Shown: positions 27,441 through 33,817 of the stretch, piece by piece
Numbering within the stretch: the stretch's first letter is position 1
How the letters are laid out: each line of letters starts with the position of its first letter
Assembly (NCBI GenBank): GCA_949524905.1
Contig: CATINC010000007.1
Coordinates: 186,001 to 250,000 of the forward strand
Reading direction: 5' to 3'
Length of the DNA stretch: 64,000 nt
DNA from: Opitutia bacterium UBA7350
GTDB lineage: Bacteria > Verrucomicrobiota > Verrucomicrobiia > Opitutales > Coraliomargaritaceae
Notes under the pieces: model-generated
Seen by the model: the letters and a program-made list of their open reading frames with translations, nothing else
Told to the model about the DNA's origin: nothing
Databases searched by the model: none
Program-made: the position numbers and the translations under genes

Positions 27441-28490
27441 CTAAAATGGGGAGCTAAATCGAAGCAAGATCGAGCCAAAGGGGTGTTGTTTGATTTGGCC
27501 TTTAAACTCGCGTGTTCGATAGGTCAAAGAATGGGAGAGTTCAAATTGCTTCCAGCTCAAGCCGTATCCTACTAAGGCTTCACCCACTAGGGGTTCATTA
27601 TCTACGGAGTACTTGTAGCTACGAAAAACAGGGCCATTGAGTGTGATATCATGAAGTACGGCAGTGCCACGGACACCTGCATAGGTGTAAATGGAAAAGC
27701 GGTTTGTACCTTGGTCTTCCGCTTTAAAAAGATCATGAGCATAGCTGCCTATTTGTAGACGTGGTGTAACAAAGGAAGGGCTCAAATTGTAACCGCTGCG
27801 TACAAGTAAGCCGAGATATGCATTGGTTTGAAAGTTTCCGATCGCCGCTCCCCATTCATGATAGCCATCCAGTTTGATCGGAAAATTATGAGTCCAGGCA
27901 TCAATGGGTAACTTATGCTTGTGATCAAAATGTAGATTAATCGTCACTTCCTCGGGCACTTGGCTATCCCAACCCTTAAAGAGATGACTTTTAGCGGTGA
28001 CGTGCTCATGAACCCAATCTTGTGTTTTTTCTGCAAGGCTTGCTTTGCCTGTGGTTCCGAGAGTGAGTGTTACTCCACTTACCGATTGATTATTTTTTAG
28101 TTGAAGGGTAAATTCCAAACCTAGCCATCCAGCATAGGGACGTTCGCCTACAGGGGGCACCAAAGCAGTGCTGTCGGTCGGCGTAAACATGAGCTGGGTG
28201 ATTCCGCTACCACCTGCGTAACGTGTCAGTCCGCTGCCGCGATTTCGATATTGGTTTAAGGAAGAATCCGAATTGATCCCGCTCAAATTTTTCAGGGTAG
28301 CTTCCAGCAGAGTGTCTGCTTCCGCGTCACTGCTTTTTTCATGCATCGAGGCCAAACGAAGGCCGTTTGTATAATCTTCATCTTCATTAAGAAAAAAATC
28401 GTTATCTAATTGAATTATAAATTTTTTGGATGACTCTGAATGCAAATTCAGCGTTAATATTACAAATATGAATAATATAAGTGATTGCAT
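27441..28490 (-). CDS. LpxR-family lipid A deacylase-like outer-membrane protein
   Basis: 349 residues with a signal peptide (about 1-18). The family signature IQLDNDFFLNEDEDYTNGLR near the N-terminus holds the catalytic Asn-Asp and Ca2+-binding acidic residues, and GERPYAGWLGLEF is the second hallmark. The rest is a series of amphipathic strands consistent with a 12-stranded barrel, ending in FGSILLRFSSPF. LpxR removes the 3'-acyloxyacyl group of lipid A in the outer membrane of Salmonella and Helicobacter; whether this homologue does so here is inferred. It is divergent from the giant beta-helix gene and follows the same strand as metH. Confidence 0.75.
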   Translation of the reverse strand: MQSLILFIFVILTLNLHSESSKKFIIQLDNDFFLNEDEDYTNGLRLASMHEKSSDAEADTLLEATLKNLSGINSDSSLNQYRNRGSGLTRYAGGSGITQLMFTPTDSTALVPPVGERPYAGWLGLEFTLQLKNNQSVSGVTLTLGTTGKASLAEKTQDWVHEHVTAKSHLFKGWDSQVPEEVTINLHFDHKHKLPIDAWTHNFPIKLDGYHEWGAAIGNFQTNAYLGLLVRSGYNLSPSFVTPRLQIGSYAHDLFKAEDQGTNRFSIYTYAGVRGTAVLHDITLNGPVFRSYKYSVDNEPLVGEALVGYGLSWKQFELSHSLTYRTREFKGQIKQHPFGSILLRFSSPF

Positions 28491-28567
28491 CTACTAATGG
28501 TTACTTTTTTAAAAAATAGTTCAAGTAAAAGTATAAGACGGGGTATAAAAGCTAATTTATCAAAATA

Positions 28568-28641
28568 AAAGCAGTCAACTCAGAATATTATCTTGATGAT
28601 ATCTCCATCACGCCCGTCATTGTCGAGGCATACGATAATTG
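28568..28641 (+). repeat. 74-bp direct repeat, upstream copy
   Basis: Identical to 32492-32565 inside the giant beta-helix gene. It reads KAVNSEYYLDDISITPVIVE then AYDN in the frame that continues without a stop into the gene at 28724 (open from 28556), but this stretch contains no ATG, GTG or TTG before the gene's own start. The bases on either side differ from those of the second copy. It looks like the tail of a lost or rearranged paralogue. Confidence 0.9.
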
Positions 28642-28723
28642 CTCGATTGACAGAACACTTGCACTAAACCCTAACAGAATCTATGCATTCGCTAGATCTA
28701 AATCACAGGTTAATTCACCAAAG

Positions 28724-31700
28724 ATGCATGCAAGTGTTGCTAGTTTGTGCTTTCTGGCATTGGCGGTGATCAAACCCAGTTTCTTAAGAATCCCTATGCT
28801 TATTTGCTTACCCCGAGCTATAAAAAATCTTTGTGTTTACGCAAATGCTTTACTCTGGGCCACGGTGGCTTTGGCATTATATACCGAACCTGAAAATCCT
28901 TTCATTGCGCCAAACGAAGTTTCTGTAGTTTTAGATATTTCTTCAGGAACAATCACAGAAGTGCAACAGCAGATCGACGCAGCTAGAGCCGCCAATCCTG
29001 AGGCATTCTTAATTATTAATCTATCGGGCACTTATGTCGTTAACGCCACCCCATTGGTTCTTAGCTCCAAACAAATTCTGTACTTGGACGGTACCATTGA
29101 AGCAAGCTCATCTGCAGCTACAGCCAATTCTTTGATATCTGTCGGCCCAGGGCAGTCGCTGGTTGCCGTAATGGGCTACGGCACTGTTTCGATGTTGGAC
29201 GGGCAAAATGCAGATATGCATGGGATAGAAGTATTGGCCTCGAGTCGTCTCATCGTTGATGACCTCATCGTTAGGAATACGCTTCGCGATGGGATTTCGG
29301 TTCAAGGATTGGGTAATACCGTATGGGATGCGCAGATATCCATATCGCGCTGTAACGTCAACGGTAGTGGCGCTTCAGGGATTCGTTTATATGATGCAAA
29401 TCAGTGCGCGGTAGTGGATAATAATTGTAGTAATAACTTCTTAGCCGGCATTAACCTATCGGCAGATACCAGCACCTTAGCCCACAATATTTGCAAGTCT
29501 AATGCCACTGGAGTATCAGTCAGTGGAGAGACAAACTCAGTCTATAAGAATATCTGCGACAACAACGCAATCGGCATAAATCTGCTATCTACCTCCAGAT
29601 TTTCAACGGTGACAGGAAACAGCATCAGCGGCAGTAGCGCCCACGGCATCGCGTTACAGGGTTCGAGCAACACGGTCTTCGATAATAGCTACTCAAACAA
29701 CAACTTGGATTTAGACAGCCTAGGCAGTAATAATTTTATCTTCGCAAGCATGAAACCGCTTGATGGGACTGGGAATAATTATTTCTATCCTCCCACCGCA
29801 AGAAATCCCCATAACGATACTGCCATCATCAATGGAATGGGGCGAAGGGATATTACGATTTACAGCACCACAATCGATGCCGTGCAACTCGTATATAATG
29901 CTGCTTTGGCGGCCTACCCTAATGATGTCATTGTACTTAACCTACAAGGCACATTTACTCTAGGAGCAAATCCCCTGAGTCTTTCCTCTAATACCTGTGT
30001 CTTACTGGAAACAAATGCTTCGATTGTCAGTGATGCTGCGACAACTGCCCTTAATGCGATCGTGGGCAGCGGGGAATCCAACATAAGCGTTTCAGGCGGT
30101 ACCTTAAATGCAAACCTGCAGCCGGTTGGAGGGATGCAATTTTTGAATTGCTCCAACTTGCTTGTCGACGAAGTCACCATAATTAGTGCGGTCGATAAAA
30201 CCATTCGGGGGGAGAATGATCTGCTCCGCATTAATGACACTACTATGAGCCCAAAGATTGTACGTGGGTGTAAGATTGATACCGGCAATTTAAGAGGTAT
30301 ATGGATTCAATCTCCACGCGCCATCATAACCGAAAATGTGGTTTCCAACTGTAATAAAGATGGCATCGACTTGGATTCATTCTCATCCCGATGTTTTGTC
30401 GCCAATAACACCTGCACCGACAATGTCCGATACGGAGTCTTTATAGAAGAAGCAGCTACACGTAATGTCGTAATCGATAATCAACTACACCGCAACCAAA
30501 TCGGGGTGAACGTTTACACTTACGAGGTTTCGCAGCCCACACAGTATAACGCTGTGCTATGCAATTTTTTGGATGCTAATTATCGCGGATTGCGTAGCGG
30601 GGAACGAGATACCCCCATAAATCGAGATACCGCCCATAATTATTTCTATAATAACTTAGTAACAAACAGTGAAGAATTTGATATTCTCTCCGGAAATAAT
30701 GGCGTGGAAAATTATTTCTCAGAGAATGCACTGGGGAGTCAGTCCATCAGTGCCTCCAATAGTAACACCGTTTTTTTCAACCCCTCGAAACTTGGCAGCA
30801 TTCAAAATACATCTGGTCTTATTTTTGATCTAAGCCAATCAAGCGCCTGGAGTGTGGGTGCATTACCCGAGCCGCTGGATATGCCGAGTTTTCAGCAGGC
30901 CGGAACTTTTACTGCGCCAGCCTCTGGAATTTTTAGGTATGCAGGCATCTCGATAGATAGTTCTGATGTGGCGATTAATCCGGCTATCGGTGGCAATGCC
31001 TACACCCTCAACCTTGGATCGGGTGGCATAAGCGGCTCATACCCCCTGCTTGTAATGGGGCAAGGCATTACCTTGAACGTTGGTGCGAATGATCAGACCT
31101 GGTCCGTGCCTTTAAATAATTTCCGAGCCGCAATCGAAGGCACCGCAACGATCACCTATACCGACCCAAGTCGCCTTTGGCTTCGAAGCTACGACAACTA
31201 TAATTTTGAAGGCATCTGGCGTGCCGATGGTGGCATTATTCATCCAGAAGTAGTTTTTGCCTGGAGCGGAGCCAATGCCAGAGTCCCTGCCCAAATTTTA
31301 AATGATGGCGGTATCCGACTGAGCAATATCTTGTATGAACGTATCGGCCTTGATCTGGAAGGCAACGGCCGTTTAATCGCCAGCGGGAACAGTGAGGATG
31401 TGGGCTCTGCCGCGACCCTAGGTAGGGGCTCATGGTCAAGAGCAGGGGACGTCTGGGGGAGTGGCAATTTAACGGTTTCCTCAAATGAAAATTACGGGAA
31501 AATAATCATAGCAGGTGACGTGTCTCACCGCGGCAATACCATCGTAGATGACAAACTCGCTGGTATGGTGTTGGAATTGAGCCCAAGCTCGACCTATACT
31601 TTTAATCCAACAAGCGCGGGTGTGACCAACCAGATAAAGGGACTGAACCCAGCCAACAGTAAACTCATTGCCAATGGCAGCTTCATCATCAATACCACAA

Positions 31701-33016
31701 ATGCAAATATCACCAATGGCAATACCTGGACCTTGGTTGATAGAGCAACACTGGGAGTTAGTTTTGGTAGCAACTTTTTCGTACAGGGTTTCTCGGAGTC
31801 GTCCGGGATTTGGAGACAAATAGATGGTTATAATATTTGGTCGTTTTCTGAAGCAACAGGCGCCCTCAGCTTGCAGATTAATCCTTATGCGCTGATTGGA
31901 TTGCCGCTATCAAATAATTTTGAGTCGAGCAGTATGGACGCCCAACCAAATGGATTTGCCGCGATTGAGGGCACTGCAATATTGGGACAGTCGCTCAATG
32001 TCATTTCCGCAAATACGCCCTTCCTAGATGGCCCAGGATCTGCGATCAGCGGTGATGGCGACACACAAGCACTGTATTGGCTGGATACAAATGTAAGCAG
32101 CAGCGAAACCAACCCCAGCCTGTACCTTATAGATTTGGACAACGGCTTATCACAGGATGTGGTTATTCGCTTTAGCTTCAACAACGTGAACGAGAATAAT
32201 TCAAGCGATGGTTTGCGCCTCCAAATTTATGATGACGCCCTCGTTAGGGGCGTTCGGCTTGATCTCGATAGTGGAGGGCGGACTATTAATAATGGCTCAG
32301 CAGCAGAATTCTTGGAATACCCAGGTATGAATAAATGGTCTACGGTAGAAATCACAACAAATCTTAGCAACAATACCTATGATCTGGTGATTCAAAGGGA
32401 AGACGAGGCCAGTCCAAGCACCTATCCGGATCTGGCTTTTAGTAACCCCATTTCAAACATAGGCAGAATCGCATTCGTGGATTTCTCAAATAAAGCAGTC
32501 AACTCAGAATATTATCTTGATGATATCTCCATCACGCCCGTCATTGTCGAGGCATACGATAATTGGGCGCTTGGGAAGGGGCTGACTTTTGGCATCAACG
32601 AAGGCTATCTAGACGATCCTGATGGCGATGAATTTAATAATCTCAGTGAGTTCTCCCTAGCGGGTGATCCGTTGCGGTTTTCTGCAAATAGCACTCAAAC
32701 GACTAGAAAACTCACAAGCTATGATTCGGATACGATCTTTAGTCTCACTTTCCCCGCTCGGGATGGGGCGAGCTTTTCTGGGACGAATGAACAAGTATCG
32801 GCTGCGGTAGACGGAGTTATCTATCGAGTTAGGGGCAGCAATGATTTGCAAAATTGGACCTTGGTCGTGAACGAAGTGATGGGAGCGGCTGCTTTGGAAA
32901 TTCAAGCGGGACTCCCCTCTCTAAGTGATGGGTGGTCCTACCGGACATTTCAGCTACCTCCAATTAATCAAAGCGAATCGCGTCAATTTATTCAATTGCA
33001 AATTGATTCACCATAG
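28724..33016 (+). CDS. Giant secreted beta-helix protein with repeat-rich C-terminus
   Basis: 1430 residues; the largest surface-type protein in the window. A signal-like region covers about 25-52 (AIKNLCVYANALLWATVALAL). The ATG at 28796 may be the true start, since the first 24 residues look unlike a signal peptide. Residues about 60-640 contain two parallel beta-helix blocks of NosD/CASH type (LVDDLIVRNTLRDGISVQG, IVRGCKIDTGNLRGIWIQS, with many GI-x-V and NNxxxNN turns). A long beta-rich middle follows, and from about 1060 a lectin/glucanase-like sandwich. The region about 1250-1300 contains DDPDGDEFNNLSEFSLAGDP, a calcium-binding-type motif before the C-terminal domain typical of Verrucomicrobia. 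No autotransporter barrel or PEP-CTERM is seen. Function unknown; adhesion or polysaccharide binding or cleavage is possible. Confidence 0.8.
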   Translation: MHASVASLCFLALAVIKPSFLRIPMLICLPRAIKNLCVYANALLWATVALALYTEPENPFIAPNEVSVVLDISSGTITEVQQQIDAARAANPEAFLIINLSGTYVVNATPLVLSSKQILYLDGTIEASSSAATANSLISVGPGQSLVAVMGYGTVSMLDGQNADMHGIEVLASSRLIVDDLIVRNTLRDGISVQGLGNTVWDAQISISRCNVNGSGASGIRLYDANQCAVVDNNCSNNFLAGINLSADTSTLAHNICKSNATGVSVSGETNSVYKNICDNNAIGINLLSTSRFSTVTGNSISGSSAHGIALQGSSNTVFDNSYSNNNLDLDSLGSNNFIFASMKPLDGTGNNYFYPPTARNPHNDTAIINGMGRRDITIYSTTIDAVQLVYNAALAAYPNDVIVLNLQGTFTLGANPLSLSSNTCVLLETNASIVSDAATTALNAIVGSGESNISVSGGTLNANLQPVGGMQFLNCSNLLVDEVTIISAVDKTIRGENDLLRINDTTMSPKIVRGCKIDTGNLRGIWIQSPRAIITENVVSNCNKDGIDLDSFSSRCFVANNTCTDNVRYGVFIEEAATRNVVIDNQLHRNQIGVNVYTYEVSQPTQYNAVLCNFLDANYRGLRSGERDTPINRDTAHNYFYNNLVTNSEEFDILSGNNGVENYFSENALGSQSISASNSNTVFFNPSKLGSIQNTSGLIFDLSQSSAWSVGALPEPLDMPSFQQAGTFTAPASGIFRYAGISIDSSDVAINPAIGGNAYTLNLGSGGISGSYPLLVMGQGITLNVGANDQTWSVPLNNFRAAIEGTATITYTDPSRLWLRSYDNYNFEGIWRADGGIIHPEVVFAWSGANARVPAQILNDGGIRLSNILYERIGLDLEGNGRLIASGNSEDVGSAATLGRGSWSRAGDVWGSGNLTVSSNENYGKIIIAGDVSHRGNTIVDDKLAGMVLELSPSSTYTFNPTSAGVTNQIKGLNPANSKLIANGSFIINTTNANITNGNTWTLVDRATLGVSFGSNFFVQGFSESSGIWRQIDGYNIWSFSEATGALSLQINPYALIGLPLSNNFESSSMDAQPNGFAAIEGTAILGQSLNVISANTPFLDGPGSAISGDGDTQALYWLDTNVSSSETNPSLYLIDLDNGLSQDVVIRFSFNNVNENNSSDGLRLQIYDDALVRGVRLDLDSGGRTINNGSAAEFLEYPGMNKWSTVEITTNLSNNTYDLVIQREDEASPSTYPDLAFSNPISNIGRIAFVDFSNKAVNSEYYLDDISITPVIVEAYDNWALGKGLTFGINEGYLDDPDGDEFNNLSEFSLAGDPLRFSANSTQTTRKLTSYDSDTIFSLTFPARDGASFSGTNEQVSAAVDGVIYRVRGSNDLQNWTLVVNEVMGAAALEIQAGLPSLSDGWSYRTFQLPPINQSESRQFIQLQIDSP
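32492..32565 (+). repeat. 74-bp direct repeat, copy inside the giant gene
   Basis: Exact copy of 28568-28641, offset by 3924 bp (1308 codons), in the same reading frame. It encodes the junction between the sandwich domain and the Asp-rich C-terminal region. Confidence 0.9.
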
Positions 33017-33163
33017 CACCGCGCCCTAATTTTTGATTTCTTGATGAATTGGCGCTCACTAGAAAACATGGATTGTCCCCCTCAAGGCACATTCGTTTTC
33101 GCGGGAGGGTCTTAATGTTTTCTGAGCTCGCAAACCGATAAGCATGGCGATGACATTGTCGGC

Positions 33164-33817
33164 GTGAAAGATTTATACAGTAACTTTCCAGAGATCGAGC
33201 CCAGCGCTTGGGCCTTGCTTGAAAATTGGGCAGAACGCCTGCGCGATTGGAACGAAAAGATCAACCTGATCTCTCGAAAGGATATTGAGCATCTAGAGTC
33301 GCGCCACTTGGCGCCCTGTCTCGCTATTACCAATCATTTAAAGTTGATGAAGGGAGCTCGAGTCCTAGATGTCGGGACGGGCGGTGGTTTTCCAGGATTA
33401 ATTATGGCGATTTGTTATCCGCAGGCGCAGTTTACGCTGGTCGATTCGATCGGCAAGAAGGTGGCCGTCGTGCGAGATATCGCGGATCAACTCGGTCTGA
33501 AGAATGTCGAGACTCGGCAAACACGAGCGGAGTCAATCCGTCGGGAATTTGATTTTATTACCGGTCGGGCTGTAAAAAATTTACCGGAGTATTTCAGCTG
33601 GATCCAAAGCAACTTGCGCCGAGGTCAGCGAAATTCTCTCCCCAACGGAGTGCTTTACTGGAAGGGTGGTGATCTTGCGGCAGAATATGCAGCTATTGGA
33701 ATCGAGCCCCGCTATCGCATTGACCTAGAGGCTGAGCTAAAGGATCCTTATTTTGCGCGGAAGTACATTCTGCATTTTGATGCTCGGGATGTGCCGCGAG
33801 CACGAGTACCCCAGTAG
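33164..33817 (+). CDS. rsmG: 16S rRNA (guanine527-N7)-methyltransferase
   Basis: 217 residues starting with GTG at 33164. The SAM-binding motif [20 protein letters not shown] is preceded by [20 protein letters not shown] and followed by [35 protein letters not shown] and YWKGGDL, all RsmG hallmarks. A segment ([18 protein letters not shown]) is slightly longer than usual. It ends ten bases before the convergent def gene. Confidence 0.93.

Follow-up and report, generated by a model that had tools for sequence, protein, structure and literature searches.

Possible parallels: template switching, variable segments and beta-helix proteins

In Escherichia coli, junctions with microhomology and with inserted nearby sequence have been documented (PMC3161906). 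Illegitimate recombination also contributes to the genome diversity of bacteria, where it is discussed together with small variable segments (PMC2884548). Both have a likely counterpart at the locus described here, which lies in a window of 64,000 nucleotides (the whole stretch of DNA that was analysed) from Opitutia bacterium UBA7350. As in template switching, or MMBIR, in E. coli (PMC3161906), a short copy of nearby sequence appears to stand at a novel junction, with no homology long enough for recombination and no need of NHEJ (Ku). Unlike in the E. coli case (PMC3161906), the product alone is seen, the edges show weak microhomology and the junction cannot be assigned to a particular base. 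What the small variable segments share with this locus is that conserved neighbours either enclose a gene or do not, with no mobile element at the site, but they were described between strains of one species (PMC2884548), whereas the comparison here spans species and genera. The gene encodes a protein whose N-terminal part has a predicted fold like that of right-handed beta-helix polysaccharide lyases, epimerases and glycosidases (PL6, GH55 and AlgE, and the fucoidan lyase FdlA), and its full-length orthologues are found among sulfatases and glycosidases; the identity to these enzymes is 7–13% over poor superpositions, which puts the predicted likeness at the level of the fold.

The repeat pair and its surroundings

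The features of the locus are listed below. G002 is a genome of the same genus, and G024 and G019, both from other genera, carry full-length orthologues of the beta-helix gene.

27441..28490, minus strand: lpxR, outer membrane LpxR family (Pfam LpxR, 6.5e-76), left neighbour of the insertion
28491..28567, no strand: spacer to the left of copy A (23% GC), not alignable to G002; probably the native DNA upstream of lpxR
28568..28641, plus strand: copy A, in the lpxR/beta-helix spacer, a 74-bp duplicate derived, as judged from orthologues, from the 3' part of the gene; probably untranslated
28642..28795, no strand: stretch from copy A to the likely start, 154 bp, unique in the genome and unmatched in G024 and G019
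28796..33016, plus strand (open reading frame listed from 28724): beta-helix gene (Pfam Beta_helix and NosD, orthologue alignment, structure model)
32492..32565, plus strand: copy B, the original as judged from orthologue alignment, encoding KAVNSEYYLDDISITPVIVEAYDN
33017..33163, no strand: right spacer, with the right junction in or near it
33164..33817, plus strand: rsmG (gidB; Pfam GidB, 5.8e-36), right neighbour of the insertion

Direct comparison within the window confirms what the first-pass annotation had reported, namely that 28568–28641 and 32492–32565 are identical (74 of 74 bases), that the offset of 3924 bp is a whole number of codons (3 x 1308) and places both copies in one frame, and that the frame holding copy A runs from 28556 into the gene without a stop. 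The flanks had been described as different, which is true of the bases bordering the exact block on either side, although the likeness fades over a few bases (about 13 on the left and 8 on the right) instead of stopping at once. A gapped alignment of 28555–28649 with 32481–32573 gives 92.6% identity. At the left edge the resemblance is weakly above chance (P ∼0.02), whereas at the right edge it does not exceed chance (P 0.14); no longer-range similarity was found past the edges of the two copies.

A match of 74 bp cannot be due to chance. The sequence occurs twice in the genome, with no third copy, and no viral contigs carrying it were found. In a survey of the whole genome, read in pieces (1,671,262 bases, with N in place of seven short contigs) and listing exact repeats of at least 32 bp, eight direct repeats came up: an overlap of contig ends (119 bp), six local repeats lying 8–87 bp apart, several of them in lysine-rich coding repeats, and the pair of copies A and B. 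This pair is the sole long-range exact direct repeat of at least 33 bp inside any contig of the readable 1.66 Mb; the genome is repeat-poor, and the pair stands alone in it.

Direction of copying and the frame of copy A

A segment homologous to copy B is present at the same place in both full-length orthologues, and neither has an upstream copy ahead of the gene. On this alignment evidence copy B is shown to be the original and copy A the derived duplicate. The part of the protein encoded by copy B (KAVNSEYYLDDISITPVIVEAYDN) contains the last predicted strand (209–218) of a jellyroll-like module, in a low-confidence model.

The first ATG, GTG or TTG in the frame of copy A is at 28724, from which the open reading frame runs to 33016 (1430 codons). 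Orthologue alignment and an N-terminus resembling a signal peptide make 28796 the likely start of the gene, and because of this, and of the lack of any of the three start codons before 28724, copy A is probably untranslated. Agreement of its frame with that of the gene has a chance of 1/3, and the 82 bases after it stay open in 18% of shuffled sequences. Among long open reading frames, about 5% are open for at least 84 nt ahead of their first start, and 4 of 778 for at least 168 nt. Promoter and terminator signals at the locus are no more than in shuffled sequence. No other copies of the flanks of copy A, or patchwork templates for them, were found in the genome itself, in G024 or in G019.

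The beta-helix protein and its orthologues

The Pfam Beta_helix match scores 74.9 bits against a curated cut-off of 25.9, which identifies a right-handed beta-helix protein; Pfam NosD matches as well. The protein is predicted to be secreted and to consist of two tandem right-handed beta-helices, a middle beta-rich region, a jellyroll-like module and a C-terminal domain. In the model of its first 667 residues, two right-handed beta-helices follow each other, and a cap helix opens each of them (pLDDT 69.5). The two domains (window 28880–30880) have a similar cap helix and similar first strands, and look like an internal duplication. The C-terminal model is of low confidence (pLDDT 44) and was used solely for the position of the strand. 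Foldseek matched the N-terminal model to PL6 alginate lyase, GH55 glucanase and AlgE epimerases, with E-values of about 1e-6 to 1e-4 and low TM-scores; by sequence, no PDB chain matched the protein. Fold and orthologue context together predict a likely role in polysaccharide binding or cleavage.

Full-length orthologues are found in two other genomes among the 43 searched in the family, G024 (67% identity) and G019 (57%), and the gene is absent from both same-genus genomes. A search for further homologues among GTDB genomes returned these same two orthologues. Both are surrounded by sulfatase, fucosidase-like, GDSL and galactosidase-like genes, as named from a reading of the translations. The identity to G024 is higher for the beta-helix protein (67%) than for a dsbD-like neighbour (52%), and lower than for the best piece of metH (77%), values that fit lateral movement without proving it. 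Foreign composition was considered as a sign of origin and is ruled out, as in both codon usage and GC3 the gene is ordinary for the host; the case for lateral origin therefore rests on distribution, context and identity, which make a transfer between Puniceicoccaceae-type bacteria likely.

Related pieces were seen elsewhere. Three neighbouring genes of G019 (contig C34) have in common, at 82–93% nucleotide identity, a jellyroll module of about 600 bp (L052:6278–6910, L052:13120–13752 and L053:4225–4824); the architectures differ, one of the genes ends in PEP-CTERM, and the arrangement points to module shuffling within a polysaccharide cluster. In the genome G018 (contig C105, L007:246–467), a 74-codon 3' remnant of the same beta-helix gene lies near the contig start, behind what by eye appears to be a tRNA 3' end, where ARAGORN finds no complete tRNA. 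This remnant sits elsewhere in the genome and its breakpoint is unlike the product of a deletion between copies A and B.

An insertion between lpxR and rsmG

In G002 the gap between lpxR and rsmG is 54 bp, the beta-helix gene is absent, and the outer genes on either side are as in the window. Three genomes of another genus (g5) likewise have lpxR directly beside rsmG, with gaps of about 90–140 bp, so that the distances over all four genomes run from 54 to 142 bp. This adjacency without the gene shows, by comparison of gene order, that the gene is derived at this site and is an insertion, something that the first-pass annotation overlooked. The interval between metH and rsmG has variable content: lpxR (window 27441–28490) stands beside rsmG in two genera and is missing from the genome G001, where metH and rsmG are adjacent with neither lpxR nor the beta-helix gene between them.

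Copy A lies on or close to the left edge of the insert. The spacers gave no alignment with those of relatives that would fix the junctions exactly, and copy A may have arisen in the same event as the insertion or after it. Neither a recombinase nor a mobile gene turned up among the annotated neighbours of the locus, and the only tRNA of the window is 22 kb away. An integrative element bounded by att direct repeats was rejected, as the beta-helix gene alone lies between copies A and B and there is no integrase.

Origin of the upstream copy

The account that we favour, and hold to be rather probable, is that of a scar from an illegitimate, template-switch-like joining, made with or after the insertion of a laterally moved gene of polysaccharide type. 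The lpxR–rsmG spacer received a beta-helix gene of a kind known from sulfated-polysaccharide clusters, probably after lateral transfer. During the insertion or soon after it, one such joining event most likely placed copy A, a duplicate of an internal 3' piece of the gene, as filler, and the outcome would be a neutral scar in the upstream region. The loss of similarity about 13 bp to the left and 8 bp to the right agrees with the copying of a short stretch of B into a breakpoint. Copy A is derived and its flanks are unrelated; the breakpoint between them cannot be placed. RecA is present in the genome, while no match to Ku was found there. The microsimilarity is weak and at one of the two edges only, which counts against template switching, and the in-frame continuation from copy A into the gene is left unexplained (chance about 1/3 x 0.18). 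An earlier suggestion of a recombination event was of the right kind, but the possible switch attached to it is unsupported.

That in-frame continuation is what a lost tandem duplication would give, if the junction had formed just after copy B (32565 joined to 28642) and the first gene copy had then been deleted nearly completely, leaving 74 bp. Open leaders of this length are rare (about 5%; 4 of 778), the exact identity of the copies fits a recent event, and the same jellyroll module has been shuffled among neighbouring genes in G019. The idea, also raised in the first-pass annotation, still has some standing, but we consider it unlikely: it requires two events whose ends lie 74 bp from each other, the beta-helix gene has neither another homologous gene nor a longer remnant beside it, the genome contains no paralogue, and similarity does not extend beyond the edges. 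Neither orthologue has a tandem full-length copy. Slight similarity just outside the exact block could also be read as an old, diverged paralogue fragment in which gene conversion from copy B overwrote 74 bp, but this similarity is gone past the 13 and 8 bp mentioned, and we regard such an origin as very improbable. An assembly or sequencing artefact that put a piece of copy B ahead of the gene is improbable too, even though the assembly is a draft of 17 contigs. Each copy is flanked by unique sequence on either side and lies in a contig of 418 kb that contains no N; an artefact would take two separate chimeric joins; the overlap of contig ends, exactly 119 bp long, suggests that the assembly used words longer than the repeat; the genome has no second repeat of this kind; and synteny around the locus is intact.

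The most far-reaching earlier proposal was an on/off switch, in which RecA-type recombination between the copies would remove the gene from some cells of the population. With 74-bp direct repeats and a recA gene, deletion at a low rate is physically possible. It would, however, lose 3924 bp for good, leaving one copy of the 74 bp ahead of 150 codons that lack a start, and there is no second arrangement to return to, as the reversible alternation of phase variation demands. The annotated neighbours include no recombinase, tRNA or mobile gene. The comparison covered one genome of the species itself, and the relatives with lpxR beside rsmG (G002 and the three g5 genomes) have an empty site that lacks the residual tail, so that the deleted form occurs in none of them. 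The proposal finds no support on these points and we give it hardly any credence. Equally doubtful is that the pair is in use in some other way, be it regular gene loss by recombination between the copies as bet-hedging, or a leftward lpxR leader transcript in which copy A would be perfectly antisense, over 74 nt, to the beta-helix mRNA at copy B.

Meaning of the locus and other repeats in the genome

The locus documents how a large polysaccharide-type gene can land alone between housekeeping genes with no mobile element in sight and, if the joining-scar account holds, leave a scar that can be recognised. The setting here is a small, repeat-poor marine genome. For scans of this kind the lesson is that relatives should be checked for an empty site before a direct repeat is called a switch.

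Outside the window, the same genome has four inverted pairs of exact repeats of 40–49 bp, about 77 kb apart, between C5:132237–132793 and C5:209155–209717. These are possibly paralogues under gene conversion, or a substrate for inversion.
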